Below are positions 11,126 to 63,364 of a stretch of DNA of 64,000 bases, in pieces. Position 1 is the first letter of the stretch. Each line of letters begins with the position of its first letter. Below the pieces are notes generated by a model. It did no database searches, was not told where the DNA came from, and saw nothing but the letters and a program-made list of their open reading frames with translations. Both the position numbers and the translations under genes were made by a program. The stretch is from an uncultured Litoreibacter sp. (GTDB taxonomy: Bacteria > Pseudomonadota > Alphaproteobacteria > Rhodobacterales > Rhodobacteraceae), in NCBI GenBank assembly GCA_947501685.1, contig CANMWQ010000001.1, positions 310,001 to 374,000 on the forward strand, given 5' to 3'.

Positions 11126-11126
11126 G

Positions 11127-46357: not shown

Positions 46358-46501
46358 ACCCCCTGACCTAAAGGACGAATCCGGCAATAATTTGACCGTG
46401 TTTACCTTTCAATCGCCTAAGAAACGACAAAAACGAGAACGGTTTTCTGGGTAACAAAGCGCAACACGTTTAATGAAAAACAAGAAGACCGAGGCGCAGA
46501 C

Positions 46502-48097
46502 ATGGAAAGATCGAACGGGGCACGCCTGTTTTTGGTCCTCACCGGGTTGGTGGTGGTTTTATCGGCGATGACGCTGGCCAAGGGTGGGTTGTTCATCGAC
46601 CGTCATGAGGGCGACACCCTTCATCTCACTGATATTCTGCTGCGCATGGGGCAGGGCCAATGGCCGCATCTGGACTTTGTCACCCCACTGGGCTTCGCAG
46701 CCTTTCTGCCGATGGCGGGTTTCATCAAGGCGGGCTTTGGCATAGGCACGTCCATTTTGCTGGCGCAAATCGCCGTCGCATTGGCGTTGATCCCGGCCAC
46801 ATGGTGGGTCGCTCGGTCAAGATTTTCCGCGCCTTGGGACATGGTCTTCGGAGCGAGCGTGTTGGTCATGGTGCTGGCCATGGTCCACGGCGAAGCGTCG
46901 CCCAATGTCTCCATGTCGATGCATTACAACCGCTGGGCCTGGGCTGCGGCCTTCCTCGCGGTGCCGCTGGCAATGCTGCCCGCGCGCGGCAAAACCTCCG
47001 CCTTGAGTGACGGGCTTATCATCGGCGGCGCGATGGCGTTCTTTGTGCTGGGCAAGATCACCTTCGGCGTGGCTTTGGCACCCGGTCTGTTTCTGGCGCT
47101 CGCCTTGCGTGGCGCTTGGGTCACGGTTGCGGCGGCGCTCGGCGTCGTGGCGGCGGTGATGATTGGCGTCACCGCGACGCTCGGAATGGAGTTTTGGGGC
47201 GCATATATAGGCGATTTGATGCAGGTGAAGAGTTCCGGCATCCGTCCACGCGCTGGGGTTGACGTTCAAACCCTGCTGCTCGCGCCGCGCTTTTTGGTGG
47301 GCAATCTGGTGCTGGTGGCCTGCATTGTCCTTTTGCGCAAAGGCAAACTCCCCGACCTCGGGCTGGTGCTGGTCACGCTCGCGCCGGGGTTTCTCTACAT
47401 CACCTATCAAAACTACGGCAATGATCCCAAATGGCTTGCTCTGCTGGCGCTGCTGATGATCACCGTCGGCTGCACGCTACAGGCACGGCTTTTGGCTCTT
47501 GTGGCGGCGGCCTTGATCGCGCCGTCATTCCTGAACATGGCGGTCAGTCCGCTGCGCCACCTGATGCTGGACACGTCGAAATTTGCCGCCGTACTGCCCG
47601 ACGCCCCCCATACCGATCTTCACGCGCCCGAAGCCCGAATGAACCGGGTGCATGAGCGCCATGGCATCACCTTCACCGACCCGCAATTTCTGGCCCTCAA
47701 CGGCACGGCGGAGGTCAATCCGGATGTCACGTTCCAAGGCGTCAGCCACCCCGCCTGCGTGCAGCAGCTGGGGCTCTTCGGGGTGCTGCGCGATGTGGGC
47801 CAGGACCTGCGGCGGTTCGGCATCTCAGGCGAGGCGCAAATTTTCACCACCGACACGTTCAACGCGATCTGGATGTTTGGAGGCTTCACCCCGCTGCAAG
47901 GCGGCGCCCCGTGGTATTATGGCGACCTCGCTGGGTTTGAGAACGCCGATTATGTGCTGGTGCCCAGCTGCTCGATCACGCCGCGCGCGTTCAAATCCAC
48001 AATCGAGGATATCAACGCAAGAGACGGGCTGACCTTCAAAGAGCTGCGCCGCACGGAGCTTTACACCCTCTACGAAAAGCTCCCAACGTCTCAGTAA
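46502..48097 (+). CDS. Multi-pass membrane protein with GT-C glycosyltransferase-like features
   Basis: 531 residues. About ten hydrophobic segments (the first at residues 8-28) and a C-terminal soluble domain of about 160 residues from FAAVLPDAPHTD on. After the first helix the loop reads FIDRHEGDTLHLTDILLRMGQGQWPHLDF and VTPLGFAAFLP. An acidic pair followed by Y/L-type spacing and a D-x-x-x-P-x-G motif resemble the first periplasmic loop of GT-C glycosyltransferases (ArnT/TfpW/arabinosyltransferase group). This is a motif-level resemblance only. C-terminal end: TFKELRRTELYTLYEKL. A strong Shine-Dalgarno is lacking. Convergent with the TadV gene, and it flanks the Tad pilus locus. Confidence 0.6.
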   Translation: MERSNGARLFLVLTGLVVVLSAMTLAKGGLFIDRHEGDTLHLTDILLRMGQGQWPHLDFVTPLGFAAFLPMAGFIKAGFGIGTSILLAQIAVALALIPATWWVARSRFSAPWDMVFGASVLVMVLAMVHGEASPNVSMSMHYNRWAWAAAFLAVPLAMLPARGKTSALSDGLIIGGAMAFFVLGKITFGVALAPGLFLALALRGAWVTVAAALGVVAAVMIGVTATLGMEFWGAYIGDLMQVKSSGIRPRAGVDVQTLLLAPRFLVGNLVLVACIVLLRKGKLPDLGLVLVTLAPGFLYITYQNYGNDPKWLALLALLMITVGCTLQARLLALVAAALIAPSFLNMAVSPLRHLMLDTSKFAAVLPDAPHTDLHAPEARMNRVHERHGITFTDPQFLALNGTAEVNPDVTFQGVSHPACVQQLGLFGVLRDVGQDLRRFGISGEAQIFTTDTFNAIWMFGGFTPLQGGAPWYYGDLAGFENADYVLVPSCSITPRAFKSTIEDINARDGLTFKELRRTELYTLYEKLPTSQ

Positions 48098-48118
48098 CTT
48101 GCGCTCAGTAATCTGCGT

Positions 48119-48610
48119 TCAGTAACCGACGGCGGCGAGGACCAGATAGGCCACCAAAGTACCAGCCAACGGGTAGCCCATCGGGAACTCACGCGTGCGC
48201 TCCCAGCTTTCCCAGTTCGGCGTCAATTTACGAAACGGCGAGACCCGCGCCAGCCGGTGGGTGATAAAGCCCAGAACCACGCAAATGGTGAAGATCGCGG
48301 CCACGTTAACCGCGTCGGTCAGCAGAACAAATGGCGCGGCGGCGGCGGCAAATTTCGCATCACCCGCGCCCATCACACCTGCAATGGTCAGCACGAAGCC
48401 GACAACCATCACGGCCACGAAATGGGTCAGCTGCCACGCCCATTGCTCGAACGGGAAGACGATCAGCCCGACCGCCAGATAGACCACGAACAAGGCCAGA
48501 ACGGCCTTGTTCGGGATTTTCATTGTCGCGAGGTCAGACCAGGCCACCCAGAGGCAAATCGGCAGCACGAAAGGCAGAAACCACAAAGCGGCGCTGACAG
48601 ACAAAAGCAC
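48119..48610 (-). CDS. tadV: Prepilin peptidase TadV/CpaA
   Basis: 163 residues, A24-type aspartyl prepilin peptidase, inner membrane. Catalytic Asp segments: WSDLATMKIPNKAVL (first Asp) and GAGDAKFAAAAAPFVL (GxGDxK, second Asp). Five or more hydrophobic helices. It removes the prepilin leader of Flp and pseudopilins. No N-methylating domain is present, as in all TadV/CpaA. Last gene of the Tad cluster; the preceding TadD-like gene ends 10 bases upstream. Confidence 0.92.
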   Translation of the reverse strand: MLLSVSAALWFLPFVLPICLWVAWSDLATMKIPNKAVLALFVVYLAVGLIVFPFEQWAWQLTHFVAVMVVGFVLTIAGVMGAGDAKFAAAAAPFVLLTDAVNVAAIFTICVVLGFITHRLARVSPFRKLTPNWESWERTREFPMGYPLAGTLVAYLVLAAVGY

Positions 48611-48620
48611 GCGTCAGGCC

Positions 48621-49466
48621 CTAGCTTTCGAGCTTCTTCAACGAGCTGACAGCCGCCTCAAAGTGACGCGGATGCGCCTCGATGGCTTGTGCCAGCAAGG
48701 TGCGGCCCATATCCGTGTCGCCTTGCTTGATCGCGGCCAGAGCCATAGTGTGCAGCAGCTGTGCGCGCTCCACTTGGGTCGCCTGGATCAGCGGCAGGGA
48801 GTAGTTTTTCTGCGCGGCACGCGCCAGAACCATGTTGTTTTTGGCGGTAAACAGCGTCGGATCATAGGTGATGGACTCGCCAAACAGCCGCTCCGCGTCA
48901 CGGAAATCGCCGCGTGTCAGCTTGGAATAGCCCCAATTGTTCAGGATCGAACCCGGCGACGTGGTCAGTCCAACAGCCGTCTCGTAAAAGCTGTCTGCCT
49001 TGTCCCATTCCTTGTTGCTGTCGGCGATCACCGCCTCAAGCTTGTAGCGCTGGAATGTCTCGATTGTGGGCGGCACGCTGTCCAGAATGGTCTCGGCCTG
49101 CTCCCAATCGCCGGTGCGGATCAGCGCGTCGGCAAAACTCATCTGATCTTCGACCGTGGACTCTTCATGGGTGGTCACCCGTTCCCAGATCACCGCCCCT
49201 TCGGTGGCGCGTTTCGCGCGCACCAGCGAGGTCGCCAGTCCGCGTTGCACATCAATGCGGTCGGGCTCTTCGGCCAGAGTGCGCTGAAAATACGCCACGG
49301 CCTCATTGGGGTCGGCGGCGGTCAGCATGATATCGTTGAGGTTGCTCTCGTCGATCACGTTCACGCCTTTCAGCGCGCGCGACACGTCGGCATCCTGCGA
49401 TTTTTCACAAGCGGAAAGGGCCAGTGCACCTGAAATGCACAGCGTCATAAGTTTGGTTTGGCGCAT
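48621..49466 (-). CDS. tadD: TadD-like TPR lipoprotein
   Basis: 281 residues. Lipobox LSAC (Cys20) after MRQTKLMTLCISGALA. The mature part is TPR-like: DPNEAVAYFQRTLAEEPDRIDVQRGLATSL, GDWEQAETIL, RGDFRDAERLFGESITYDP, GDTDMGRTLLAQAIEAHP. In Tad systems TadD is a pilotin/assembly factor for the secretin, and this protein fits the family. A second TPR lipoprotein gene lies immediately upstream. Confidence 0.85.
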   Translation of the reverse strand: MRQTKLMTLCISGALALSACEKSQDADVSRALKGVNVIDESNLNDIMLTAADPNEAVAYFQRTLAEEPDRIDVQRGLATSLVRAKRATEGAVIWERVTTHEESTVEDQMSFADALIRTGDWEQAETILDSVPPTIETFQRYKLEAVIADSNKEWDKADSFYETAVGLTTSPGSILNNWGYSKLTRGDFRDAERLFGESITYDPTLFTAKNNMVLARAAQKNYSLPLIQATQVERAQLLHTMALAAIKQGDTDMGRTLLAQAIEAHPRHFEAAVSSLKKLES

Positions 49467-49522
49467 GGGGTGCGTCCTCTGCTGCTCTCAATACGTCCCT
49501 TGATTCTCAGGTCGTTGGCAGA

Positions 49523-50101
49523 TCAGGGTGTCGACAGTATCAGATACTGCCCCCTGCCACGGCGGACCAGGTCAAAGGCTTCGTCGTTATTCTCAGCAGT
49601 GTAGGCCGGGTTTTCGATTTTTGCGAGGGCGCGCCGCAAGTTTTCCCGAATTTCGTCAGAATTGCCACTATCGAGGGCAAAGGCCGTCTGAAACACCCGC
49701 GCGGCCTCTGCGGGTTTTTGCTGCTCCATCAGAACCACGCCCAGATTGTTCCAGGCTGGCACGAAGGTTTGCTCTTCCTTGATGGCGCGGCGCAGCAGCG
49801 TTTCGGCTTGGCCCAGCCGCCCCAGATGCAAATTCGCCGAGCCCAGCGCAGACAGCACATCCACCGTTGTTCCCATATCACCCGCCGCGCGCAGATAGGC
49901 TTTCAGCGCCAGCTCATATTCGCCCGCCGCCATCAGGCGGTGCCCGACGATCAGCCCATCAACGGAGTCGCCGCGCGCCACAACGCCCGCGGGCCCAAAC
50001 GGATCAGCCCCCGGGCCGACCGCGAGGTCAGCACCCGAGGGCGCAGGCTCGCATGCGGCGAGTGCTGTTAGGATCAGCGCGGTCCCCACCACATGTTTCA
50101 A
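49523..50101 (-). CDS. Second TPR lipoprotein of the Tad locus
   Basis: 192 residues. Lipobox LAAC (Cys16) after MKHVVGTALILTA. Tetratricopeptide-type repeats read GEYELALKAYLRAAGDMG, GRLGQAETLLRRAIKEEQ and QKPAEAARVFQTAFALDS. It is a shorter paralogue-like TadD partner and probably an outer-membrane or periplasmic assembly factor. Its ATG follows tadC by 3 bases. Alphaproteobacterial Tad loci often carry two such genes. Confidence 0.78.
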   Translation of the reverse strand: MKHVVGTALILTALAACEPAPSGADLAVGPGADPFGPAGVVARGDSVDGLIVGHRLMAAGEYELALKAYLRAAGDMGTTVDVLSALGSANLHLGRLGQAETLLRRAIKEEQTFVPAWNNLGVVLMEQQKPAEAARVFQTAFALDSGNSDEIRENLRRALAKIENPAYTAENNDEAFDLVRRGRGQYLILSTP

Positions 50102-50104
50102 AGC

Positions 50105-51094
50105 TTACAAACCACCACCATTAAGGTTGACGTAGATGTCGTAGATCGACGGTCCAATCAGGATAATCATCAAGGGCGGAACAGTAAACATCATGGTTCC
50201 AAGTGTGAGCTTGGTCGGCAACACATTGGCCTTCTCTTCGGCGCGCATCACGCGTTTGTCCCGCATCTCGGAGGCATAGACCCGCAGCGCTTCGGCAATG
50301 GATGTACCAAAGCTGGCCGATTGGATCATCACCGTCACGAAGCTGGCCACATCCGGCACGCCGGCGCGCTCGGACATGTCTTTCAACACGGTGATCCGGT
50401 CCTTACCGGCCTTCATTTCATGGGCCACGATCTCGAACTCGTCAGCGAGGGCAGGGTAGCCCGCGCGGATTTCGGCGGCCACGCGGATGATGGCCTGGTC
50501 CAGTGATTGGCCCGCTTCAACGCAGACCAGCATCAGGTCAAGCGCGTCAGGAAAGCCCGCCTCAATCTGTTCCACACGTTCTTGGCGGCGGCGCTCGATC
50601 CAGTATTTTGGCAGGTAGTAACCTGCGCAACCCGGCAGGATGATCGCCAAGACCATGTTGCGGGTGGAGATTTCGTCGCCCGCCAGAAACAGCGCGTAGA
50701 TGACACCGGCAAGCAGGAACAGCATGCCCAGTATGAATTGCAGGAAGTGGAAGGTGCGCACCGCCGACTTTTGCTTATAGCCCGCCTGCAGCAGTTTCAG
50801 CTTCATGCCGTCCAGCTGTTCCTGATCCTCGGGCTCAAGGAATTTGGCGTATTTATCCAGCTTGTCGGTGCCGGTCTTGCGACGCAGCCCGGCGGCCTCT
50901 GGATTGCCCGGGTTGGCAGAGCGCCCGCGTTTGGCATCGGCCTTGAGCCGGTCCATCGGATCTTTGCGCTTTTTGAGCATGACCGGAAGGGTCAGGAGCA
51001 CCAAAAGCAGGCCCAGAAAACCGACCGCGATTACCGGGCCAAGCGGGCCCAGCAGGTCGGTCAACATGGTGTTGAATTGCTCGATCATGGCCAA
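50105..51094 (-). CDS. tadC: Tad pilus inner-membrane platform protein TadC
   Basis: 329 residues, T2SF/GspF-type domain. Hydrophobic segments near residues 19-39, 130-150, 160-180 and at the C-terminus (LTLGTMMFTVPPLMIILIGPSIYDIYV). The conserved core includes ALDLMLVCVEAGQSLDQAI and ERAGVPDVASFVTVMIQSASFGTSIAEAL. With TadB it forms the platform rotated by the TadA ATPase. tadB lies 7 bases upstream. Confidence 0.94.
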   Translation of the reverse strand: MAMIEQFNTMLTDLLGPLGPVIAVGFLGLLLVLLTLPVMLKKRKDPMDRLKADAKRGRSANPGNPEAAGLRRKTGTDKLDKYAKFLEPEDQEQLDGMKLKLLQAGYKQKSAVRTFHFLQFILGMLFLLAGVIYALFLAGDEISTRNMVLAIILPGCAGYYLPKYWIERRRQERVEQIEAGFPDALDLMLVCVEAGQSLDQAIIRVAAEIRAGYPALADEFEIVAHEMKAGKDRITVLKDMSERAGVPDVASFVTVMIQSASFGTSIAEALRVYASEMRDKRVMRAEEKANVLPTKLTLGTMMFTVPPLMIILIGPSIYDIYVNLNGGGL

Positions 51095-51101
51095 TGGCCC
51101 C

Positions 51102-52070
51102 CTAGACTTTAATATTAACCATGATCTTCATGAAGATCATGTTCACGGTAAGAAACACGGCAACGGCCAGACAGGCGGGAATGAAGAATTCCGTGTCTTT
51201 CACGTCGACATAGTAATCAGGCTCCATCACGTTGATGCCGACCAGCGCCAGAAGCGGAAAGACCGACAGGAACGCGCCGGACCATTTGGCCTCAGCGGTG
51301 ATCGCTTTCACGCGGCGAAACAGCTTGAACCGGGCCCGGATCACTTGGGACAATCCGTGCAAAATCTCCGCCAGGTTACCACCGGAGGTCTGCTGAATGG
51401 TCACCGCAACCGCCAGAAAGCGCAAATCCTGCATATCCATGCGTTCGGCCAGATGTTTCAGGCTTTCAGACACGTCACGCCCGTACGCACTTTCATCGGC
51501 GATCACGCCAAACTCCGTGCCCAGCGGGTCCGCAACCTCTTTGGCCACGATGTTGATCGCGGAGGAAAACGGGTGGCCCACGCGCAGCGACCGCACCATC
51601 AGCTCAATCGCGTCCGGCAGCTGCTCTTCCAGCATCGCCAGCCGCTTTTTGCATTTGTTATTCACCCAGACATAGACCGCACCCACGCCCATCGCGACGG
51701 CAATCAGCCCGCGAATAGGGGCGGAGGCCGCCGTCATCTGCGTCAGAACCATGAAGATAAACACCGCTAGAACGGCCATGATCACGATCAACGTGGTCGG
51801 CGTGAAGGCAATGTTGGCGCGCTGCGCCTTGTCGGCCAGCATCGAATAAAGCGGGATGCCGCCCGATTTCATATGCTGGTTCATCTCCTTGCGGAGCTGT
51901 TCGAGCACTTTCTCGCGCGAGCCGCCTTTCTGGATCATGTCCAGACGGCGGTTCACCTTGTTGTTCAGGCTGATCGACTTGCCAAAAACGAGGAGATACA
52001 CCCCCTCGATCATCATCAGAACGGCGACAAAGATAATGCCGTACAGAAGCGGTTCGAATGAAATATTCAT
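51102..52070 (-). CDS. tadB: Tad pilus inner-membrane platform protein TadB
   Basis: 322 residues, GspF-type. N-terminal helix (LLYGIIFVAVLMMIEGVYLLVF), then paired helices near 95-130 and a C-terminal hydrophobic end (FFIPACLAVAVFLTVNMIFM). The conserved segment LPDAIELMVRSLRVGHPFSSAINIVAKEVADPLGTEF and LAVAVTIQQTSGGNLAEILHGLS match TadB. Works with TadC and TadA. tadA ends 6 bases upstream. Confidence 0.95.
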   Translation of the reverse strand: MNISFEPLLYGIIFVAVLMMIEGVYLLVFGKSISLNNKVNRRLDMIQKGGSREKVLEQLRKEMNQHMKSGGIPLYSMLADKAQRANIAFTPTTLIVIMAVLAVFIFMVLTQMTAASAPIRGLIAVAMGVGAVYVWVNNKCKKRLAMLEEQLPDAIELMVRSLRVGHPFSSAINIVAKEVADPLGTEFGVIADESAYGRDVSESLKHLAERMDMQDLRFLAVAVTIQQTSGGNLAEILHGLSQVIRARFKLFRRVKAITAEAKWSGAFLSVFPLLALVGINVMEPDYYVDVKDTEFFIPACLAVAVFLTVNMIFMKIMVNIKV

Positions 52071-52076
52071 ATCCGT

Positions 52077-53495
52077 CTACTCCGCAGCAACAGGTTCGTA
52101 GATGGAGGCCGGTAGATCGTAGCCCCATTGCTTGAACCGTTCAGAATAATGCGACCGCACACCCAGCGGGGTGAACTGGCCAATGATCTTGCCATCAGGC
52201 TGCAGGCCGAGCCGCTGGTAGCGGAACACTTCCTGCATCGAAATAACGTCGCCCTCCATGCCGGTGATCTCGGTGATCGACACCATGCGGCGGGAGCCGT
52301 CTTGCAGACGCGAGGCCTGCACAATCAGGTTCACAGCCGAAGAAATCTGAGCACGCACCGCCTTGATCGGCATCTCGATCCCGGCCATCGCGATCATGTT
52401 TTCCAGACGCGACACACCATCGCGCGCGGAGTTCGCGTGGATCGTGGTCATCGAGCCGTCATGGCCCGTGTTCATCGCCTGCAACATGTCGATAACTTCT
52501 TCGCCACGTGTCTCCCCCACGATGATGCGGTCAGGCCGCATCCGAAGGGCGTTTTTCAGACAATCGCGCTGCGACACGGCGCCTTTGCCCTCAACGTTGG
52601 CAGGACGCGATTCCATCCGGCCGACATGGACCTGTTGCAGTTGAAGTTCGGCCGTATCCTCGATCGTCAGGATACGTTCGGAGTTATCAATAAACGAGCT
52701 CAGCGCGTTGAGCGTGGTCGTTTTACCAGAACCCGTACCACCCGACACGATGACATTCAGCCGGCAGGCCACGGCGGCTTGCAGATAGGCGGCCATCTCT
52801 TCCGAGAAGGCGCCAAAGGCGCACAGCTCGTCAATCCCGAGCTTCTCTTTCTTGAATTTCCGAATGGATACCAGCGACCCGTCCACCGCAATCGGCGGCA
52901 CCATGGCGTTGAAACGCGAGCCGTCTTTCAGCCGCGCATCCACGTAAGGATTGCTTTCATCCACACGACGACCCACGGCCGACACGATCTTGTCGATGAT
53001 CCGCAGCAGGTGCTTTTCGTCTTTAAAACGCGTGTTGGTCAGCTCCAGTTTACCAGAGCGTTCGATGAACACCCGGTTGGGGCCATTCACCAGAATATCG
53101 TTGATCGTTTCGTCTTTCAAAAGTGGCTCAAGGGGCCCAAGCCCCGTCACTTCGTCATAGAGTTCCGCATGCAGGTTCTGGCGTTCTTCCTTGTTCAGGA
53201 CGATCGCCATCTCCTCGAGGCCCTCGGCACAGATCGATGCGATCTCGGCCTTCAGCTCCTTTTCCGGCGCGTCTTCAAGCGCGGAGAGGTTCAGGTTGTC
53301 GAGCAGACGGTGGTGCAGCTCGGAGCGGATCTCTTCCAGCTTCTGGCGGCGTTTCAGCTCTTTATCAATGGCAACCGTGTCCGCCGGAGCCACAACGGGC
53401 TTCGGCTTTTGCATCTCGACCTTCTTTTCGGCAACAGGTGCCGCGGCTTCAGCCGCAGCAGGTGCTTTGTCGGATTTTTTGTATCTCGAAAACAT
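52077..53495 (-). CDS. tadA: Tad pilus assembly ATPase TadA/CpaF
   Basis: 472 residues, secretion ATPase of the GspE/VirB11 type. Walker [17 protein letters not shown] (about residue 260), Asp box [17 protein letters not shown], Walker B-like [22 protein letters not shown], and His box [17 protein letters not shown]. The N-terminal 60 residues are Pro/Ala/Lys-rich. It powers pilus polymerisation at the cytoplasmic face. Normal length. It lies between tadZ and tadB, with 12 bases to tadZ. Confidence 0.97.
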
Positions 53496-53507
53496 CTAAT
53501 GCGTCCC

Positions 53508-54779: not shown

Positions 54780-54986
54780 GTTTTATCCCACGAACCCGAT
54801 ACAGATCGGATGCTTGGCTACCCCAGCTAGCTTTCGTAAGCGTTACTAAGGGGGCAGCTGATTGCCTCGTTTCACCGAAATTTCCACAACGGGGTGGAAT
54901 TGTCGGCATTCTCGAGACAATCAATGCTTAGGAATAAGGGCGAGATTAGGGCCAAAATGTCGAAAATCTGAGGTTTGTAGCGCGCT

Positions 54987-55625
54987 TTAGTTCGCAACCC
55001 CGGCAGACACTTCGTCAAAGACCACACGGCCAGCGGAATCCACATGCTCGCGATAGACAACGCGGGCGTATTTTCCGTCCAGGCCATAAGCGCCTGCCTC
55101 AACGAAACCGGTCACTTCGGTCACGGTGCGGCGGTTGCGGCGTTCACGGCCTTCGGTGGCGATCACAGGGCGGGTTTCGCCGAAGGAGGCGACGGCCTCC
55201 AGACGGGACCGGCTGATGCCTTGTTGCGTCAAATATGCAACAACGGCGTTCGCCCGGCGCAGGCCAAGTGACTTGTTATAGCCCGCAGAGCCCACCGCGT
55301 CGGTGTGGCCGTAGACCCGGAAGCGCACTTCCGGGAACTGACGGATCCAGCCCGCTTGGCGTTGCAGAACCTGCTTGGAGGCCCCGTCCAGCTGCGCGCT
55401 GTTGAACGCGAAGGTCACTTTGCTGTCCACCTCGTCTTCGAACCGGCGGGCGAGGCCTTCGACGGCGGCCAGCTCTCCGGTGGAGATCAGGGTGTTGGTC
55501 ATGGTGGGGTTGCCGAAGCCGCCCTCATCCACATCCGCGCCTGCTTCGCGGTAAAAGCTGCCGCAGGCGCTCAAGGTCAGGGAAAGAGTTGCCATCAAGG
55601 CAAGGGTGCTGGTTGATCTAAGCAT
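54987..55625 (-). CDS. OmpA-domain lipoprotein in the CpaD position of the Tad locus
   Basis: 212 residues. Lipobox LSAC (Cys21) after MLRSTSTLALMATLSLT. The segment DEGGFGNPTMTNTLIS resembles the FGNATxxN motif of CpaD, while the rest is an OmpA-like peptidoglycan-binding domain (about 70-180): KVTFAFNSAQLDGASKQVL, FRVYGHTDAVGSAGYNKSLGL and RRANAVVAYLTQQGI. It sits between the secretin gene and tadZ, where CpaD/RcpB is normally found. It may tie the secretin to peptidoglycan. cpaC is 6 bases upstream. Confidence 0.82.
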   Translation of the reverse strand: MLRSTSTLALMATLSLTLSACGSFYREAGADVDEGGFGNPTMTNTLISTGELAAVEGLARRFEDEVDSKVTFAFNSAQLDGASKQVLQRQAGWIRQFPEVRFRVYGHTDAVGSAGYNKSLGLRRANAVVAYLTQQGISRSRLEAVASFGETRPVIATEGRERRNRRTVTEVTGFVEAGAYGLDGKYARVVYREHVDSAGRVVFDEVSAGVAN

Positions 55626-55631
55626 CTGATA

Positions 55632-57053
55632 TTACTCCAAAACGTAGCCGTAAGAGCCTGAGAAGTCTTGACGTGCAACTTCCCCGGTGCCGCCGCGAGA
55701 GCTGCGGACAGATTTTGCGATAGTGCCGTTCAGGAACAATTCGCGCTCGGTAGGTGGGCGGATGCGGTCAGTCGGCAGCACGAAGCTGTCGCCATGTTGA
55801 GGTGTGACCAGATGGGCGGTCACAATCACCACCAGCTCGGTCTGGTTGCGGCTGTAATTGGCGCTGCGGAACAGCGATCCAAGCACAGGCACGTCACCCA
55901 GCCAAGGCACCTGGCCGGCAAGGTCCACAAAGTTGTCTTGCAAAAGGCCCGCGATAGCGAAGCTCTGGCCGTCACGCAGCTCGACAGTCGTGGAAGACGC
56001 CCGCGTGCTGAACGATGGCACCGAAACGCCGCCTGTTGTCACCGCATTGGTGGTATCCAGGGTCGACACGGAGGTCGCGAGGTTCAGGTTGATAACATCC
56101 TCATTCACCACCGTTGGCGTGAAGGCCAGTTCCACACCGAAGGGGCGGTACTCAATAGAGATGCCGTCTTCGCTGGACACAGGGATCGGAATTTCACCAC
56201 CCGCCAGGAATTCGGCCTGTTGGCCGGAGAGGGCGGTTAGGTTTGGCTCCGCCAAGGTGCGCACAAGACCTTTGGACTCGAGCGCTTCGATCAGAACAGC
56301 CGCTTGCAGGCTGCCGCTGCCAAAGCCGATGGCCAATGCGCCATTGCTGCCACCCGCAGCGACGCCGGGCAGGGCGGGTCCGGCCAGAATGCCGCCGGTT
56401 GTGACGTTGTTTGCGCTGCCGCCAGAGCCTCCGTTCAGGCCGAAATTGCCGCTCGCCCCGGAAAAACCAAGGCTGACCGACAGGTCTTTCGACACAGAAC
56501 GCGACATCTCCGCAAAGCGCACTTTCAGCATGACTTGCTGGGTGCCGCCGACGCTCATCAGGTTCGACACCGCGTCCGGCGCGTAGCGCTCTGCCAGATC
56601 AAGGGCGCGGTCCAGCTTGAGAATGCTCGACACTGTGCCAGACAGCACAAGGCCCGCATTGGCGGTGCGCACTTCAATATTTTCACCCGGCAGGATTTCC
56701 TGCAGACGCTCTTTGAATTCCGCAATGTCCGGCGCAACCTGCACCTCAACATTGGTGATCAGGCGACCATCTGGGCCCAAAAGGGTCAGCGTGGTGCGAC
56801 CCGGTGATTTGCCGAGCACATATATAGTGCGATCCGACAGTGTCGCGATGTCTGCGATGGCCGGGTTGGCCACCGACAATTCCGCGAAGGGAACGTCGCT
56901 TTCAACAACCACGGCGCGGTTGATCGCCACGCTCAGGTTGCGCGCCGTTGTGCCGCTTGTGATGCTCAAATTCTGAGCAACGCTGGTGACGGGTGTGAAT
57001 GTGGTAACGGCAAGGCCGATAAGCCCTGCACGGATAATCTGCTTCATTTGCAT
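55632..57053 (-). CDS. cpaC: Tad pilus secretin RcpA/CpaC
   Basis: 473 residues, type II/III secretin superfamily. Signal peptide (MKQIIRAGLIGLAVTTFTPVTSVAQ), an N-terminal pilus-secretin domain with DVPFAELSVANPAIADI and LGKSPGRTTLTLLGPDG, a BON-like part, then the beta-barrel secretin (about 230-415) containing GEIPIPVSSEDGISIEYRPFGVELAFTPTVV and VPWLGDVPVLGSLFRSANY. It forms the outer-membrane pilus channel. Two ATGs (57053 and 57047) follow AGAGGCAGG. It is separated from cpaB by 261 bases that contain a strong hairpin. Confidence 0.95.
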   Translation of the reverse strand: MQMKQIIRAGLIGLAVTTFTPVTSVAQNLSITSGTTARNLSVAINRAVVVESDVPFAELSVANPAIADIATLSDRTIYVLGKSPGRTTLTLLGPDGRLITNVEVQVAPDIAEFKERLQEILPGENIEVRTANAGLVLSGTVSSILKLDRALDLAERYAPDAVSNLMSVGGTQQVMLKVRFAEMSRSVSKDLSVSLGFSGASGNFGLNGGSGGSANNVTTGGILAGPALPGVAAGGSNGALAIGFGSGSLQAAVLIEALESKGLVRTLAEPNLTALSGQQAEFLAGGEIPIPVSSEDGISIEYRPFGVELAFTPTVVNEDVINLNLATSVSTLDTTNAVTTGGVSVPSFSTRASSTTVELRDGQSFAIAGLLQDNFVDLAGQVPWLGDVPVLGSLFRSANYSRNQTELVVIVTAHLVTPQHGDSFVLPTDRIRPPTERELFLNGTIAKSVRSSRGGTGEVARQDFSGSYGYVLE

Positions 57054-57314
57054 GTGACCTGCCTCTCAAATCACTATTGGATTGGGTCTGTTGCCCAATT
57101 TGAAACGACCATGTGCGATTTCCGTTTTTATTGCAAGAATCAGATAGTTGTAGGTCTTCCTTTATGTGGGTATGTGGCAACACTGGTCCAGAACTGGTAT
57201 AAAACTAAAGGCGCGACACCTATATACGGTGCCGCGCCTCGATTTTTTTTGTTGCTCGGGTCCCGCTATGCGCGGGTCATGCGTGGCCAAAAGGGGAAGG
57301 CCGACGTCAGGAGC
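57054..57314. promoter_or_regulatory. cpaB-cpaC intergenic region with terminator-like hairpin
   Basis: A 12-bp stem at 57209-57220 / 57228-57239 with a TATATAC loop. On the minus strand, where both neighbours are transcribed, one step is a G-U pair; on the plus strand it becomes an A-C mismatch. The minus-strand 3' flank is TTTAGTTTTA. It may terminate or attenuate transcription between cpaB and cpaC. A promoter for cpaC would lie between 57054 and 57205, but I see no clear consensus. Confidence 0.55.
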
Positions 57315-58163
57315 CTATTCGGGGCATTCGACCGGAATTTCGACCACTTCGGCGCCTTTGCGCGTCTTGACGGTACAGACTTTCTCGACCTCGCGCTCGA
57401 CCTTCACGCGCTCTTTGATGCCAAGCAGCTGGTTCTGGTCGACCTCAATCGCGGCCAGTTCGGTATCGTCTCCGGCGCCCACAAGCGACAGGGTCAACCG
57501 GCCGGTCGATTGTGCCTGGGCCAAAGCCGCGACCCGCTGGGGGGAGGCCGCCACGGTCACAGTCCGCGCAATCGTCGGTGCGTTGCGGTCGCCGTCAGCA
57601 ATTTGGTCAACAGCCAGCAATTGCAGCCGGGTTTCAATCAGGGTCGTGATGTTGCGGCCGCGGGCCTCGCCGGTCCAATACACGTCCACCTCGTCGCCCG
57701 GGCGCAAAAAGCCCGACACGCCGGAGGACACGTCAACACGCAGCGCGAACGCCCGCATGCCTTTGGCCAGACGCGAGGACACCCCGGCATCTTCGCCCGG
57801 TTCGGTCACTTTCACGTTCAGAACGGCTTCGTCTTTTTCCATGACCCGCAGCACGGTCCGCAAGGCGCCGTCCTCGGCAAAGAGCGGGTCGCCTTTCAGA
57901 AACTCGCCATGTTGGAACGCGCCTTCAGGAATGGCGTTTTCCGGCCATGCAATCAGCCGTACATCGTCTTTTGTCAGCTTCTCGCCGTAAGCGATGCGGC
58001 GTTTTGCAACAAAGACCGTCTCCAGCGGGACGGTGCTCGCGAGCTTGGCCTTTTGTGCGGCCACGGTGGCTTGATACTCGCCGATCCGATTCTTGGCGAG
58101 GTAGGCAGCAAAGCCAGCAAGCCCGACCCCAATGACCAAAACCAACCCAAATAGAATTCTCAT
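57315..58163 (-). CDS. cpaB: Tad pilus assembly protein RcpC/CpaB
   Basis: 282 residues. One N-terminal membrane helix (LFGLVLVIGVGLAGFAAYLA), then a SAF domain (about 48-110: TVFVAKRRIAYGEKLTKDDVRLIAWPENAIPEG) and a periplasmic C-terminal domain with FLRPGDEVDVYWTGEARG and TLIETRLQLLAVDQI. It acts near the secretin and peptidoglycan. GAAAGGGG precedes ATG 58163. It follows the first pilin gene by 274 bases. Confidence 0.92.
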   Translation of the reverse strand: MRILFGLVLVIGVGLAGFAAYLAKNRIGEYQATVAAQKAKLASTVPLETVFVAKRRIAYGEKLTKDDVRLIAWPENAIPEGAFQHGEFLKGDPLFAEDGALRTVLRVMEKDEAVLNVKVTEPGEDAGVSSRLAKGMRAFALRVDVSSGVSGFLRPGDEVDVYWTGEARGRNITTLIETRLQLLAVDQIADGDRNAPTIARTVTVAASPQRVAALAQAQSTGRLTLSLVGAGDDTELAAIEVDQNQLLGIKERVKVEREVEKVCTVKTRKGAEVVEIPVECPE

Positions 58164-58437
58164 GTTGTGCCCCTTTCAGATGCCACATTTTACACCCGTC
58201 AACACGCGACGGTTTTCCAGCAGGTCTCGGTATGGCTGGCAAATGCGGCAAAAGATTGATTGCGGGATGAACAGTGTGGGGCAATTCACGGGATTTGAAG
58301 CATTTCAGAAACCCCAGATTCAGTGCGCGTTGTTGAATCGCAGCGGCCCAGCCGTTCGACTGACGCACAGGGTCAGGATCGGCTGGACCGTTGTCTTGGG
58401 CCTTGTTCAGGCGGCGCTTTACCGCGCTGGCGTCGGA
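58164..58437. other. Intergenic region between flp1 and cpaB
   Basis: 274 bases on the minus-strand side after the flp1 stop. A weak GCGC-GGTAAA-GCGC hairpin is present near its start; no plausible gene and no clear promoter are visible. Confidence 0.4.
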
Positions 58438-58644
58438 TCAGACGTCGCTGTCATCCTCAAAGCTCGTGCTGATCAGCTCGTTCTTCAAGTTGGTGTCGAT
58501 ATCACCTGACAGGTCTTCGGTCCCGTCGGTGATCACGCCCACAGCAGCAAGTGCCAGGCTGATCACGCCTGCACACAATATGACCCAATCCACGGTCACT
58601 GCGCCGTCTTCGTCTAACGCAAAAGATGCAATCCTATTTAACAT
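58438..58644 (-). CDS. Flp-type pilin, minor or second copy
   Basis: 68 residues. A short leader MLNRIASFALDEDG ends with Gly before AVTVDWVILCAGVISLALAAVGVI, the hydrophobic N-helix of a class IVb pilin. Processing by TadV is expected after Gly14. The motif is T-V-D-W-V instead of the E-Y pair found in canonical Flp pilins. The C-terminus is Ser/Thr-rich then acidic (STSFEDDSDV). AGAGGAAGAC precedes the ATG. It is a paralogue of the pilin at 58895. Confidence 0.85.
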   Translation of the reverse strand: MLNRIASFALDEDGAVTVDWVILCAGVISLALAAVGVITDGTEDLSGDIDTNLKNELISTSFEDDSDV

Positions 58645-58819
58645 GTCTTCCTCTTCGTTGGCATGCCGCTTCCAGACAACATGCCGTTCCGTTTACCCTC
58701 ATCATCCATATTAGAATCAAATCTGGCGAAAATGCGTCACAATGCTAACGATGCCGCGATCCACCAGAAACGCTCCGTTTCGAATTGGAAACAAAGCCGC
58801 AGAAAAGAAAGGCCAGAAC

Positions 58820-58850
58820 AGAGAAAGGCCGCGCTCTGGAAAGCGCGACC
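58820..58850 (-). terminator. Rho-independent terminator after the major Flp pilin gene
   Basis: Minus-strand stem GGTCGCGCT / AGCGCGGCC (58827-58835 with 58842-58850, one G-U pair), then TTTCTCT. It lies about 45 bases past the stop at 58895, so much of the pilin mRNA may end here and the tad genes downstream receive less transcription. Confidence 0.75.
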
Positions 58851-58867
58851 CTAATTCTTTGTGAGGT

Positions 58868-58883
58868 CCGTCCGTGAGGACGG
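58868..58883 (-). promoter_or_regulatory. Short hairpin just past the flp stop
   Basis: CCGTCC / GGACGG stem around a four-base loop (GTGA on the plus strand). It immediately follows the pilin stop and precedes the main terminator, possibly protecting the mRNA end. Confidence 0.4.
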
Positions 58884-58894
58884 TCTACGTCAAC

Positions 58895-59086
58895 TTATTG
58901 GAAAGTTGTCGAGATGCCTTGCGAAGTCAGCTGGTTCTCGATGTCGCCGGACAGGTCCTGCAGGCCGTCAGAAACAGACGCCATAACAGCAATGCCCAGG
59001 CCAACGATGGCTGCGGTCAGAACGACCCAGTCAACAGTCACGGCACCAGATTCGTCAGCTACGAAGTTTTTGAACAGTTTAGTCAT
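58895..59086 (-). CDS. flp: Major Flp family pilin
   Basis: 63 residues. The leader MTKLFKNFVADESG ends in Gly14; the mature pilin starts AVTVDWVVLTAAIVGLGIAVMA. In the classic Flp motif, a G followed by x4-E-Y is cleaved; here the Glu and Tyr are Asp and Trp. The C-terminus NQLTSQGISTTFQ is Ser/Thr-rich. ATG 59086 is chosen because GGAGGGA lies 7 bases upstream; an in-frame codon at 59101 would skip that site. First gene of the Tad locus, with its own terminator. Confidence 0.9.
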   Translation of the reverse strand: MTKLFKNFVADESGAVTVDWVVLTAAIVGLGIAVMASVSDGLQDLSGDIENQLTSQGISTTFQ

Positions 59087-59499: not shown

Positions 59500-60315
59500 A
59501 TGTTCAAACGCTCTCTCTCTACACTTTGTGCAGCCGCACTTCTGGTCACAACGCCGGGCCTCGCAGGGTCACATAAGCCCGCGTTCGGCGGCGATTTCAC
59601 CTTCCGTAAAATTGCGCCACCCACATCCGGCACCAAAAAGCGCATCACCGTGCAGATCAAACCCGGCGACCAAGTGGTCAAGGCAGAGGTCAAAGCAAAG
59701 CCGCGCAAAGACAGCGCAAGCGCGGATCTCGATTGGTTCTGGAACGCCGTCTCGCCAAAACTCGGCACGCCTGTGCCCGGCCGCTTCATCGACGCGGTGG
59801 ATCACGTCGCCAAAGCGCCGTCAGGCAAAGGGGTCTCCGAGCCGCGCCTCGAGACGCTGCAAAACATCGCCTCCGCCCATGGGTCGGATATTTTGATCGA
59901 AACGCTCAATAAGGATGTGTCACCCGCGCTGGTGCTGGCGCTGATCTCGGTGGAATCCAGTGGCAAGGTCGCGGCCGAAAGCAATAAGGGCGCGCAAGGG
60001 CTGATGCAGCTGATCCCCGACACCGCCGCTCGCTTCGGCGTCACGGACGCCACCGACCCCAAACAAAACATCAAAGGCGGGGTCGCTTATCTCAGCTGGC
60101 TGCTCAAGGAATTCAATGGAGACCCTATCCTCGCGCTGGCAGGCTACAACGCGGGCGAGGGGGCCGTGCGCAAACATGACGGCGTGCCCCCCTATGCCGA
60201 AACCCGCGCCTACGTGCCCAAAGTGCTGGCCGCGTGGCGCGTCGCCCGCTCCATGTGCCTGACAGAGCCGCTTTTGGCCAGCGATGGCTGCGTGTTCCGC
60301 ACAAGCGGGCTCTAA
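59500..60315 (+). CDS. SLT-type lytic transglycosylase
   Basis: 271 residues, periplasmic. Signal peptide (MFKRSLSTLCAAALLVTTPGLAGS), then a spacer and a C-terminal SLT domain (about 125-250): ALVLALISVESSGKVAAESNKGAQGLMQLIPDTAARFGV with the catalytic Glu in VESSG, followed by GGVAYLSWLLKEFNGDPILALAGYNAGEGAV. It cleaves peptidoglycan. Its position divergent from flp makes a role in inserting the Tad machine through the wall plausible, not proven. Confidence 0.9.
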   Translation: MFKRSLSTLCAAALLVTTPGLAGSHKPAFGGDFTFRKIAPPTSGTKKRITVQIKPGDQVVKAEVKAKPRKDSASADLDWFWNAVSPKLGTPVPGRFIDAVDHVAKAPSGKGVSEPRLETLQNIASAHGSDILIETLNKDVSPALVLALISVESSGKVAAESNKGAQGLMQLIPDTAARFGVTDATDPKQNIKGGVAYLSWLLKEFNGDPILALAGYNAGEGAVRKHDGVPPYAETRAYVPKVLAAWRVARSMCLTEPLLASDGCVFRTSGL

Positions 60316-60324
60316 AGCGCCGCC

Positions 60325-61062
60325 CTAGACGCTCATCTTCTTGAACATCCGCTCCGGGATCGCCTTGATGATCCCCATAATGATGCGCCAGAAAAACGGC
60401 GTATATATAGTGTTCTTCTTTTTCTCGACGGCAGCCAGCAGGTCGCGGGCCACATTTTCTGGGGGTGCGACAAGGAACATGCCCTCAATCCCCCAGGTCA
60501 TCGCGCTGTCCACAAAGCCGGGTTTCACGGTGACAACATGCCCGCCCGACCGCGTCAGCCGGTTACGCAAACCGCTCAAATAGGTGTGGAACCCCGCCTT
60601 GGCGGAGCCGTAGACGTAATTTCCGATCCGTCCGCGGTCGCCCGCGACCGAGCCCACGCCAATCACCGTGCCGCCGCCGCGCGCTTCCATGGCCGGGGCC
60701 ACGGTCTGCAAAAAGGCCGCAGGACCGGTATAGCTGTCGGTGACAACGCCCGCGATCAGCGACGGGTCCGCGTCAATATCCGCCTGTGGCGGCATCGAGC
60801 CCACGAAAACGGCGACATTGATCATGCCGTCTTCTTTGCTTACCTCGTCCACAATCGCGGCAAAGCCGCTTGTGTCGCGCGCGTCAAACTTCACAGCCCG
60901 CGCGCCTTGCGCGCCGCGCAGGCGGCAATCCTCGGCGCTGGCTTCCAGATCAACCATGTCGCGCCCGGCCAGAAACACCCGCGCGCCCTCAACGGACACC
61001 GCCCGCGCAAAGGCCTTCGCCATCGAGGACGTGGCCCCCAAAATGATCCAATTCTCGGTCAT
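60325..61062 (-). CDS. DprE2-like SDR (decaprenyl-phosphoryl-keto-ribose reductase)
   Basis: 245 residues. The N-terminus WIILGATSSMAKAFARAV is a variant NAD-binding motif (GATSS) found in DprE2-type SDRs. AGRDMVDLEASAEDCRLRG follows. Catalytic Tyr-x-x-x-Lys lies in YVYGSAKAGFHTYLSG. C-terminal VTVKPGFVDSAMTWG and a short hydrophobic tail match the family. With the DprE1-like enzyme it would turn decaprenyl-phosphoryl-ribose into the arabinose form. Its ATG overlaps the DprE1-like stop by 4 bases, so translation is coupled. Function is inferred from homology. Confidence 0.85.
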   Translation of the reverse strand: MTENWIILGATSSMAKAFARAVSVEGARVFLAGRDMVDLEASAEDCRLRGAQGARAVKFDARDTSGFAAIVDEVSKEDGMINVAVFVGSMPPQADIDADPSLIAGVVTDSYTGPAAFLQTVAPAMEARGGGTVIGVGSVAGDRGRIGNYVYGSAKAGFHTYLSGLRNRLTRSGGHVVTVKPGFVDSAMTWGIEGMFLVAPPENVARDLLAAVEKKKNTIYTPFFWRIIMGIIKAIPERMFKKMSV

Positions 61063-62372
61063 ACAGCCTTCCTTATCTTCAGCCGCCGGGTCAGGTCGGT
61101 CTCGTAATGCCCGTCCGGGTCAATCTTGTTGGCGATGGAGGCGAACTCCGCCAGCTCGGGATACATCGCGCCCACATGCGACGCGTCCAGCGTGGCGTCC
61201 TTGGCAAAATACACCCGGCCTCCGGCCTCAGCGGTCATCAGTTCCAGCTCCGCAATCAACTTGCTGGCCTTCTTGCCGGCGCGGAAATCCACGGCCAGCG
61301 TGTAGCCTTCCATCGGGAAGCTCATCATACCCGCGCGGCCCGGCCCCATGCGTTTCAGCACGGCCAGCGGCGAGGCCAGCCCGCTATGGGCGATTTTTTC
61401 CAAAATACGCTTCAACCCGCGCACGCCGTCGACCGGCACCACGCATTGAAACTGTATGAACCCGGCCTTGCCGTAGAGCCGGTTCCAGTCATGGATCCGG
61501 TCCAGCGGAAAGAAATAATCCTGAATGGGCTTCACCGATGTGCGCCCAACCTCCGGGATGCGTCGGAAATATGCGTTGTTGAACGCCTTCACCACAGGCC
61601 GCGACAGCGCAAACCGAGGCGCGTTGAACGGCACCGATTTGCTTGATTTCTTCGGCGGGACCAGCCCGTAATCGGTTTCGCCTTCTTCCAGAATACCGCG
61701 CCCCAGTGCGGCACCTTTGGCGGTGGCATCAAGCCAGCCCACCGTATAGGTGGCCTTGGAGGCGTCCAGCGCCTCGATAAACTCTTCATACCCGTCAATG
61801 CGGCGCTCGGTCACGACCATCACGTCGCCCTTGCAGGCCAGCAGTTGCAGCTTGGCCGAAACGATCACCCCCGTTTGTCCCAAGCCGCCTACGGTGGCGC
61901 GGAACAATTCGGGGTCCTTTTCCGGCGTGATCTTGGTGGCCTGCTCACCGCGCATCAGGGTGATCTCCGTCACATGCTGGCCAAAGGAGCCCGCGCCGTG
62001 GTGGTTCTTGCCATGCACGTCATTGGCAATGCAGCCGCCCACAGTGGCAAAGCCGGTGCCGGGCATCACGGTGGGCAGCCAGCCGCGCGGCGCAAAAACC
62101 CGCGCGATCTCGCCCACTTTCAGACCCGCTTCGACCTCCAGAATGCCGGTGGTCTCGTCAAAGCCTATCATCCGGTCCAGCCGCACCATCTTCACCGCCG
62201 GGCCGCCATCGTTCAGACACGCGTCGCCATAAGAGCGGCAATTGCCGATCGCGGGGCCGGGGTCATCGGCCAAAGCCGCGCGCAGGGAAGACACCCGTTC
62301 AGGCCGTGCAACAGGCCCGGTGGCGGTCTTCACCCGGCCCCAGCCGGTATATGTCAAGGAATTCCAAAGCAT
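61059..62372 (-). CDS. DprE1-like FAD-dependent oxidase
   Basis: 437 residues of the VAO/PCMH oxidase family. FAD-binding segments: PAIGNCRSYGDACLN, then VGGCIANDVHGKNHHGAGSF, nearly as in mycobacterial DprE1. C-terminal substrate domain: GGRVYFAKDATLDASHVG keeps the catalytic-region Lys. The Cys attacked by benzothiazinones in Mycobacterium tuberculosis (Cys387) appears to align with Ala360 here (TLAVDF); this alignment is from memory. The frame is open far upstream to 63428, but homology begins at ATG 62372. It oxidises decaprenyl-phosphoryl-ribose in relatives. The flippase gene is 5 bases upstream. Confidence 0.9.
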   Translation of the reverse strand: MLWNSLTYTGWGRVKTATGPVARPERVSSLRAALADDPGPAIGNCRSYGDACLNDGGPAVKMVRLDRMIGFDETTGILEVEAGLKVGEIARVFAPRGWLPTVMPGTGFATVGGCIANDVHGKNHHGAGSFGQHVTEITLMRGEQATKITPEKDPELFRATVGGLGQTGVIVSAKLQLLACKGDVMVVTERRIDGYEEFIEALDASKATYTVGWLDATAKGAALGRGILEEGETDYGLVPPKKSSKSVPFNAPRFALSRPVVKAFNNAYFRRIPEVGRTSVKPIQDYFFPLDRIHDWNRLYGKAGFIQFQCVVPVDGVRGLKRILEKIAHSGLASPLAVLKRMGPGRAGMMSFPMEGYTLAVDFRAGKKASKLIAELELMTAEAGGRVYFAKDATLDASHVGAMYPELAEFASIANKIDPDGHYETDLTRRLKIRKAV

Positions 62373-62377
62373 GATGT

Positions 62378-63364
62378 TCAGGCCTTTTTCGAGAATTGTT
62401 CGGCGACCGGAAAGCTCAGCAGCCCGACCAGAATGGCAAACCACAAGGTGGTCACGCGGATGATGGCCATGGCGGGAAGGGCAATGGCCAGGGGCACGGC
62501 TTGTGCGCTCAGCATCATCAGCATCGCGGCTTCCGCCCCGCCCACGCCACCCGGCGCGCCGGTCAGCCCACCCGCGAGGGTGGAAAATATGAAGATGACG
62601 GTTGCCGTGGCCATGCCAATATCGGCGCCCATCCAACTCAGCAAGAGGTATAGCGCATAGCCCTCGGCGGTCCAACCAATCAGGCTCAGCACGAGTGCGG
62701 GCAGAATGACCTTGGGGTCGCGAAACAGCGCCATGGAGCGCGCGGCCCGGCGTAGTCCCACAAATCGGCGCGGCCACCGCCCTGTCGCGCGCCACGCAAA
62801 TGTAACGATCCGGGCCAGCAAGCCGGGCTTGGTCACGATGGCGGCAAAGACAAGCGCCACCAAAGCCACCGGGATTGCCGTGGCGGCATGCGCAGATTGC
62901 GACAACACCACGCCGCCGCCCAACACCATGCCCATAGCCGCAATATCCACGATCCGGTCCGTGAAGGGCAGGGGCAGCAGCCGCTCGAACGGCCAGTCCG
63001 TCAGCCGTGAAATCCAGCGCAACCGCACCAGCTCCCCGATCCGGCCGGGGGTGACGGTCATCGCAAACCCACCCATGAAATGCAGCACATTCTGGCCCAC
63101 GCTCAACGGCAGCCCAAGCTGGCGGGCAAACAGATGCCACCGCAAGCCGCGAAAGCTGTAATTCACCATGGACAGCGCCAGCAGGGCCAGCAGCTGCATA
63201 AAACTCAGCGATCTGAGCTGGGACATCGTCTCCTCCCAGCCAATCGTGGCGGCGAGCCCGGCAAAGCCTATGACAAACAACGCCAGCAACCCGCCAAGGA
63301 TCACCAGATCGCGCTTGGGGGTTACTCTGGAGATTTGGGGCAGGGTTGGCCCGGTGCTGCTCAT
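62378..63364 (-). CDS. Lysylphosphatidylglycerol synthase transmembrane-type flippase-like protein
   Basis: About 328 residues with roughly eight membrane helices. The family (UPF0104/LPG synthase TM domain, also AglD/GtrA-like) moves lipid-linked molecules across membranes or acts on phospholipids. Motif-bearing segments: NYSFRGLRWHLFARQLG, TVTPGRIGELVRLRW, PLPFTDRIVDIAA, and LTGAPGGVGGAEAAMLMML. No catalytic LysPG domain is present. It starts the operon with the DprE1- and DprE2-like genes, so translocating a polyprenyl-phosphate sugar is plausible. ATG 63364 is chosen; an in-frame ATG at 63376 is possible. Confidence 0.82.
   Translation of the reverse strand: MSSTGPTLPQISRVTPKRDLVILGGLLALFVIGFAGLAATIGWEETMSQLRSLSFMQLLALLALSMVNYSFRGLRWHLFARQLGLPLSVGQNVLHFMGGFAMTVTPGRIGELVRLRWISRLTDWPFERLLPLPFTDRIVDIAAMGMVLGGGVVLSQSAHAATAIPVALVALVFAAIVTKPGLLARIVTFAWRATGRWPRRFVGLRRAARSMALFRDPKVILPALVLSLIGWTAEGYALYLLLSWMGADIGMATATVIFIFSTLAGGLTGAPGGVGGAEAAMLMMLSAQAVPLAIALPAMAIIRVTTLWFAILVGLLSFPVAEQFSKKA

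Follow-up and report, generated by a model that had tools for sequence, protein, structure and literature searches.

Among described glycosylation systems, the prototype of the three-component type decorates O antigens, and homologues of DprE1 and DprE2 have been reported in candidate systems containing arabinofuranose (Araf) and have been tied to a Pseudomonas pilin (PMC11127046, here and below in the part available). Glycosylation has also been reported for Aggregatibacter Flp1, a pilin of the Tad type (PMC6182317, available in part, citing Inoue 2000). The main text of PMC8383342 (Tad in the Rhodobacterales), in the part available, has no mention of glycos, arabin or flippase, and titles and abstract openings in the open-access PMC literature yielded neither a dedicated glycosylation machinery for Tad pili nor the gene combination described here. 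We analysed a window of 64 000 nucleotides from an uncultured Litoreibacter sp. (C1:310001-374000 of a host assembly of 3.32 Mb in 16 contigs, 98.99% complete), in which a Tad locus is accompanied by an operon for a flippase-like, a DprE1-like and a DprE2-like protein and by a gene for a 531-residue multi-pass membrane protein (M531).

Our reading is that both modules form one extracytoplasmic glycosylation system within the Tad island, one that would transfer a pentofuranose (probably D-Araf) and would act probably on the Tad pilus; we give this a probability of about 0.55. In its complete form, carried by most relatives, a fused HAD-UbiA protein would place ribose-5-phosphate derived from phosphoribosyl pyrophosphate on polyprenyl phosphate and remove the 5-phosphate. 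DprE1 and DprE2 would epimerise C2 via a keto intermediate to give polyprenyl-P-arabinofuranose, the flippase-like protein would flip the lipid-linked pentofuranose, and M531 would then add the sugar, beyond the membrane, to what is most likely the Tad (Flp) pilin or some other component of Tad. Genome comparison gives good support for a tie between M531 and the donor pathway, and M531 is likely to use the product of the DprE enzymes as its donor.

Putative donor operon and candidate transferase

The three genes of the donor operon lie on the reverse strand and overlap or abut. They encode a PF03706 (LPG_synthase_TM) membrane protein at 62378..63376 (Pfam 8.3e-45; NCBIfam flippase-like domain 3.2e-24), a DprE1-like flavin adenine dinucleotide (FAD)-type oxidase of the polyprenyl-P-ribofuranose 2'-oxidase type at 61059..62381, and a DprE2-like reductase of the short-chain dehydrogenase/reductase (SDR) type at 60325..61062. 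A sequence-only reading had named this operon, the Tad locus and the multi-pass protein, and domain searches (Pfam, NCBIfam, PDB) together with reading of the open reading frames (ORFs) located every element where it had been placed; the right end of the operon alone moves, from 63364 to the flippase ORF start at 63376. The DprE1-like ORF as referenced opens at a TTG (62381), with a probable ATG start at about 62372.

The DprE1-like protein matches the NCBIfam DprE1 model NF053785 with E 8.8e-113 and 378 bits, below the equivalog cut-off of 500, and its top PDB match is DprE1 itself (4aut, E 1.9e-74), with similarity over nearly the full length. The DprE2-like protein matches the DprE2 model NF053786 with E 2.6e-46 and 158 bits, again below the equivalog cut-off (250), and its top PDB match is DprE2 (21gq chain C, E 3.8e-23); it scores higher with an unnamed SDR model, PRK07102 (5.2e-77, likewise below its cut-off). 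The epimerase that a three-component system calls for would be represented by these homologues, and a dedicated flippase by the PF03706 protein of the operon, for which transport is predicted from sequence. No GtrA-type flippase was found in the host genome.

We searched 248 genomes of the family for DprE1, HAD-UbiA, M531 and the Tad protein CpaC. DprE1 has two clades: A, in 64 genomes, is close to the protein of the window (51-70% identity for its other members), and B, in 27 genomes, is distant. Beside DprE1 in the 63 clade-A genomes read there was a flippase homologue in 60 and DprE2 in 61. Loci of DprE1 relatives were also fetched from named genomes (the best 80); the 37 of Rhodobacteraceae type among them (L009-L045), many on short contigs, had DprE2 in 36 cases, the flippase in 28 and, as far as the fetched sequence reached, Tad genes in 24. 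In the DprE1 alignment, the His and Lys of HGKNHH and the Lys of AKD are conserved in 64/64 rows (63 genomes). The lysine of NKIDP, considered as a catalytic residue, is Lys in just 42/64 rows and Ser in M. smegmatis, and nothing was concluded from it. All 64 clade-A rows carry Ala at the column aligned with a mycobacterial DprE1 cysteine that we take to be the benzothiazinone target.

M531 is encoded on the forward strand at 46502..48097. Searches against Pfam, NCBIfam and PDB gave no match (a PDB profile search returned two chance matches with E > 1), and no relatives were found among viral contigs. The residues invariant in an alignment of 35 members, M531 and its homologues, include E36, D38, R48, D58, N143, R144, C419, D451 and C490. 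By hydropathy there are eight hydrophobic segments, of which two overlap; a polar stretch of 56 residues containing E36, D38 and D58 follows the first segment, and the C-terminal part, containing C419 and C490, is polar. This layout is typical of glycosyltransferases of the GT-C type. The same layout is described for GT-C proteins in the literature (PMC11127046).

In profile comparison by hhalign, M531 aligned with GT87 at 89.0% (E 2.4e-6, an E-value for one comparison) and with PMT_2 at 12.7%, against 0.1-1.2% for seven controls (CtaB, flippase, TadB, TadC, CpaE, HAD-UbiA and CpaA). The gathering score of GT87 (PF09594) was not reached: the M531 of the window gave no match, and 7/35 homologues matched at E up to 10, the best at 0.023. 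Further weak Pfam matches of single homologues were to Mannosyl_trans4, YfhO and DUF2142, which like GT87 we take to be GT-C families, and also to unrelated names such as DUF2070 (3/35). From these profiles M531 has a good chance of being a GT-C, and it probably belongs to an undescribed family distantly like GT87, the sequences of GT136 and TfpW lying outside the comparison.

Association across the family and two sites in the Tad island

M531 was present in 71 of the 248 genomes: 64/64 of clade A, 4/27 of clade B and 3 of the remaining 157. Comparing clade A with all others (7/184) gives a Fisher p of 7e-52, a value that ignores kinship and includes two rows assigned by hand, namely G122 (DprE1 46% identical, E 8.1e-114), placed in clade B, and G069 (65%, gene incomplete), placed in clade A; with G122 moved to clade A, the count becomes 64/65. 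Matches to M531 weaker than E 1e-50 (G113, G125, G240) were left uncounted. Tad alone does not account for M531, since CpaC is present in 214/248 genomes, by subtraction 145 of them without M531. CpaC was found in 63/64 clade-A genomes against 151/184 others (p 5e-4), and the system is accompanied by Tad in nearly every case. Four of the seven M531 carriers outside clade A hold a clade-B DprE1 elsewhere in the genome (p 0.0096). In another, G019, a HAD-UbiA gene of clade-A type sits 809 bases short of a contig end, which may be where its DprE genes would lie.

To allow for kinship we used a CpaE-CpaF-TadB tree of 73 selected genomes (30 of clade A, 34 with M531); it is a tree of Tad genes, not of species, and has many weak forks. 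On it there are 14 changes of state for M531 and 15 for clade-A DprE1. From well-supported branches, independent pairs were drawn. Starting from DprE there were 10, of which on average 7.6 differed in the same way, 0 in the opposite way and 2.4 showed no difference (median p 0.008). From M531 there were 9, with a mean of 7.0 the same way and none opposite (median p 0.016, highest 0.06). Co-occurrence and co-change both support the earlier suggestion that M531 and the DprE operon are parts of one system.

The two modules occupy separate sites of the Tad island. In the window, M531 is flanked on one side by a gene for an AAA ATPase (45044..46387, reverse strand, by Pfam), carried by Tad islands with or without M531, and on the other by the Tad core (48119..58163, reverse strand), comprising CpaB, CpaC, an OmpA-like protein, CpaE, CpaF, TadB, TadC, two TPR proteins and CpaA, named from Pfam domains and gene order and syntenic in relatives. 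In many bacteria, Tad pili are used to attach to surfaces. Beyond the core are two Flp-type pilins on the reverse strand, one of 68 residues at 58438..58644 and one of 63 residues at 58895..59086, the proposed acceptor; neither had a Pfam match, and both were identified by motif (GAVTVDW plus a hydrophobic stretch in the latter). With these the locus, 48119..59086 in all, has CpaA, CpaB, CpaC, CpaE, CpaF, TadB, TadC and a Flp pilin, the set by which we define Tad. An SLT lytic transglycosylase follows at 59500..60315 on the forward strand (Pfam SLT 2.5e-26), and 9 bp (60316..60324) separate its stop from that of DprE2; in many relatives' loci the HAD-UbiA gene stands here.

Twenty Tad islands were taken from genomes chosen because they lack both modules; they show the conserved gene order and the empty sites: M531, flippase, DprE1 and DprE2 are all missing, the AAA-CpaA boundary is readable in 17, and the transglycosylase is readable in 17 and belongs to the Tad island with or without the sugar genes. 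The only genome of the same genus in the set, G171 (locus L168), lacks both modules with synteny intact. There the AAA gene adjoins CpaA and the transglycosylase adjoins a NUDIX gene, exactly the two sites filled in the window. Seventeen distinct loci were read for M531; it has CpaA, the AAA gene or both as a neighbour in 16 of them, all but G223. Many genomes have M531 and the DprE operon within ~16 kb of each other; in G003, G036, G152 and G183 the modules are far apart or on separate contigs, and both are retained.

Contrary evidence and rival explanations

Several observations weigh against the reading proposed here. M531 falls below every Pfam gathering score, and neither structure model of it was of usable quality, with a predicted local distance difference test (pLDDT) score of 41.7 for the single-sequence and 39.9 for the two-sequence model; the earlier description of its product as GT-C-like is upheld at the level of the GT87 profile. 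Two genomes, G102 and G223, have a distant M531 homologue (34-35%) and no DprE1 was found in them; these homologues possibly form a related subfamily with another donor. The G102 copy is on contig C515 of that genome (G102:C515), and no Tad gene is near the copy in G223 (locus L166). Another genome, G117, has kept DprE1 and M531 without CpaC, HAD-UbiA, or DprE2 beside DprE1. At this locus (L148) the flippase-DprE1 pair seems to be joined straight to TPR1-CpaA-M531, with DprE2 and most of Tad gone, and it looks like the remnant of a large deletion. The Ser/Thr-rich pilin C-termini, which the sequence-only reading took as possible glycosylation sites, do not convincingly separate carriers from non-carriers and were set aside as evidence: 30 carrier loci (DprE1 or M531 in locus or genome) against 19 others give p 0.03, uncorrected, including for kinship, and the main pilin tail has 9/23 Ser/Thr in same-genus G171, without the system, against 6/24 in the window. 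To these are added GT87 genes that track DprE (35/63 DprE-positive against 3/65 DprE-negative genomes, 128 examined) and a host genome in which searches for UbiA genome-wide, with repeat family searches, found neither HAD-UbiA nor a spare UbiA.

The last of these concerns the start of the pathway. In many relatives a HAD-UbiA fusion lies between DprE2 and the transglycosylase. Maritimibacter alkaliphilus HTCC2654 (L027) and Rhodovulum strictum DSM 11289 (L029) each have it in a single locus together with flippase, DprE1, DprE2, transglycosylase and Tad genes, whereas the islands of Celeribacter baekdonensis B30 (L017), Celeribacter neptunius DSM 26471 (L026) and Pacificibacter marinus F2R14 (L020) have no HAD-UbiA. 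Two members score above the PRK08238 cut-off and match decaprenyl-phosphate phosphoribosyltransferase with 3e-42 and 2e-41, below the cut-off of that model. Counting matches of at least 231 bits, HAD-UbiA occurs in 57/64 clade-A and 27/27 clade-B genomes, mostly beside DprE2; others, among them G185, G116 and G007, have none at the island and one elsewhere in the genome. Our analysis suggests that HAD-UbiA is probably the pathway start, with phosphoribosyl transfer and dephosphorylation in one protein. A one-protein start of phosphatase and UbiA is likewise described in the Citrobacter system (PMC11127046). The window genome lacks the UbiA with phosphatase that a three-component system calls for. 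The sequence-only reading had asked for such a pair beyond the right edge of the window; none is there (a further 20 kb was inspected for ORFs) or elsewhere in the host genome, and in relatives the pair does exist, as the fusion in the DprE2-transglycosylase interval. Each of the three UbiA-family proteins of the host was set aside as the phosphoribosyltransferase: from neighbours and sequence, the first was read as CtaB, with cox genes alongside, the second as the UbiA of ubiquinone synthesis, and the third as BchG, ahead of a PucC-like gene. The pair of BchG-like chlorophyll synthase and PucC-like transporter (C2:458-2637, locus L003, by reading) suggests that the host may be an anoxygenic phototroph.

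Without HAD-UbiA the route may be incomplete in the host. The same absence was found in six further clade-A genomes, G079, G117, G151, G158, G160 and G217. A repeat check with the UbiA family covered all seven, with E as high as 10 allowed in four of them; one additional UbiA-like protein, a weak match, turned up in G079 (L247, 55.6 bits), and UbiA pieces lie on short contigs in the fragmented assemblies of G079 and G158, where the absence is less sure. An assembly gap could account for one such genome, hardly for several. In a DprE1+DprE2 tree (FastTree) five of the seven appear to group with G185, and the window genome appears to stand beside G156, which has HAD-UbiA. Clustering of unannotated ORFs, itself crude, gave no convincing replacement gene shared near the island by these lineages.

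To our knowledge, UbiA is the only type of lipid-ribose synthase; either an unrecognised enzyme makes the lipid-ribose in the host or the pathway is idle, and we put even odds on its being active in this strain. That HAD-UbiA was lost and the other genes now form an idle relic is somewhat unlikely in our view. Besides the loss itself, a slight relaxation may be present, with ratios of nonsynonymous to synonymous change (pN/pS; synonymous sites near saturation) of 0.30-0.46 for window genes against G156 and G168 and of 0.26-0.38 between these two, and G117 is a decaying version. The four remaining genes are, however, intact in the window, and a second lineage without HAD-UbiA, spanning different genera, retains them: within the group of G079, G151, G158, G160 and G217 the pN/pS of flippase, DprE1 and DprE2 is 0.19-0.32, hardly expected of idle genes. 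The epimerase genes of this group are under purifying selection, or nearly so, and thus have been kept where the known first enzyme is gone.

The GT87 genes bear on the acceptor. The sample comprised 80 genomes drawn evenly and 48 selected; in the evenly drawn 80, GT87 was found in 14/27 DprE-positive and 3/53 DprE-negative genomes (p 5e-6), and no such link was found for PMT_2 (12/24 clade A against 21/56 others, p 0.33). The host has two tandem GT87 genes on C6 at ~94.5-97.9 kb, away from Tad (L361:8547-9821 and 10605-11864, reverse strand), flanked by genes read as carB and cfa/aspS; a PDB search with one of the proteins gave no match. An orphan pilin-like gene adjoins the gene read as aspS near this pair (L361:15384-15572, reverse strand; Flp1_like 3.8e-4, below cut-off), and small pilin-like ORFs occur in 2/11 other GT87 loci. 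Since GT87 tracks DprE, more than one enzyme may draw on the donor, and for at least part of it an envelope glycan is a serious rival. Taken further, M531 and the GT87 enzymes would be the transferases that carry this donor's sugar to lipopolysaccharide, capsule or some other arabinosylated polymer, and the Tad site would be incidental. Both the position of the host pair and the O-antigen target of the prototype system (PMC11127046) fit that account, which we nonetheless consider unlikely: M531 almost always adjoins CpaA and/or the AAA gene, Tad almost always accompanies clade A, and GT87 is absent from 20/50 clade-A genomes examined, M531 from 0/64. A Tad component as acceptor is slightly favoured, and we infer the Flp pilin, with D-Araf as the sugar.

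That sugar is itself open to doubt. The DprE homologues could act on another lipid-linked or soluble sugar, the transferred residue then not being Araf; scores below both equivalog cut-offs, and carriers without the usual ribosyl-lipid synthase, would fit. We find this improbable given the near full-length likeness to DprE1 with several motifs conserved, HAD-UbiA in most clade-A genomes and the DprE1/DprE2 homologues of Araf-containing candidate systems (PMC11127046). Least probable of all is that M531 has an accessory role in Tad and no transferase activity, being paired with DprE by hitchhiking in a variable island: one recombination event can move both modules where they lie within ~16 kb, but the pairing persists at a distance or across contigs, clade-B DprE1 is over-represented among the other M531 genomes, CpaC is found without M531 in 145 genomes, and the M531 profile resembles GT87.

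The proposed pentofuranose system of the Tad island gives a testable set of partners for the DprE1/DprE2 epimerase outside mycobacteria and adds a candidate GT-C family. The lineages in which the epimerase is kept and the known type of lipid-ribose synthase is gone are a natural experiment, and a puzzle in the host genome too. A bolder version, decidedly doubtful as a whole, would have M531 found a new GT-C family arabinosylating the Tad (Flp) pili of the Rhodobacteraceae and an unrecognised, non-UbiA enzyme start the pathway in the host and in the G079/G151/G158/G160/G217 group.

Comparison with described systems

The mycobacterial decaprenyl-P-arabinose pathway (Rv3806c, Rv3807c, DprE1, DprE2 and the Emb/Aft enzymes) shares with this locus the DprE1/DprE2 homologues, GT-C users (here presumed) and, in relatives, a UbiA phosphoribosyltransferase. 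It differs in that the phosphatase here is a HAD domain fused to UbiA and that Ala takes the place of the presumed benzothiazinone cysteine. The Pseudomonas system is likened to this one by gene setting: TfpW is presumably a dedicated GT-C beside pilus genes, as M531 would be beside Tad, although the pilus here is a Tad (Flp) pilus and there type IVa. A donor pathway of the DprE type is common to both (PMC11127046). The Aggregatibacter Flp1 case shares the Tad pilin, reported there to be glycosylated and proposed here as acceptor, with neither sugar nor machinery given in the available passages of PMC6182317.

The GT136 systems of Citrobacter youngae O1/O2 (PMC11127046, in the part available) differ from this locus in having a MATE rather than a PF03706 flippase, and in that the proposed GT-C here fell in no family found. 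Theirs is an O-antigen cluster and ours a Tad island, whose HAD-UbiA has been lost in the host. Common to both are the fusion of phosphatase and UbiA that would lead to polyprenyl-P-ribofuranose (here in relatives of the window rather than in the window) and an epimerase step; a flippase, and a GT-C whose first helix is followed by a domain, would be shared as well.

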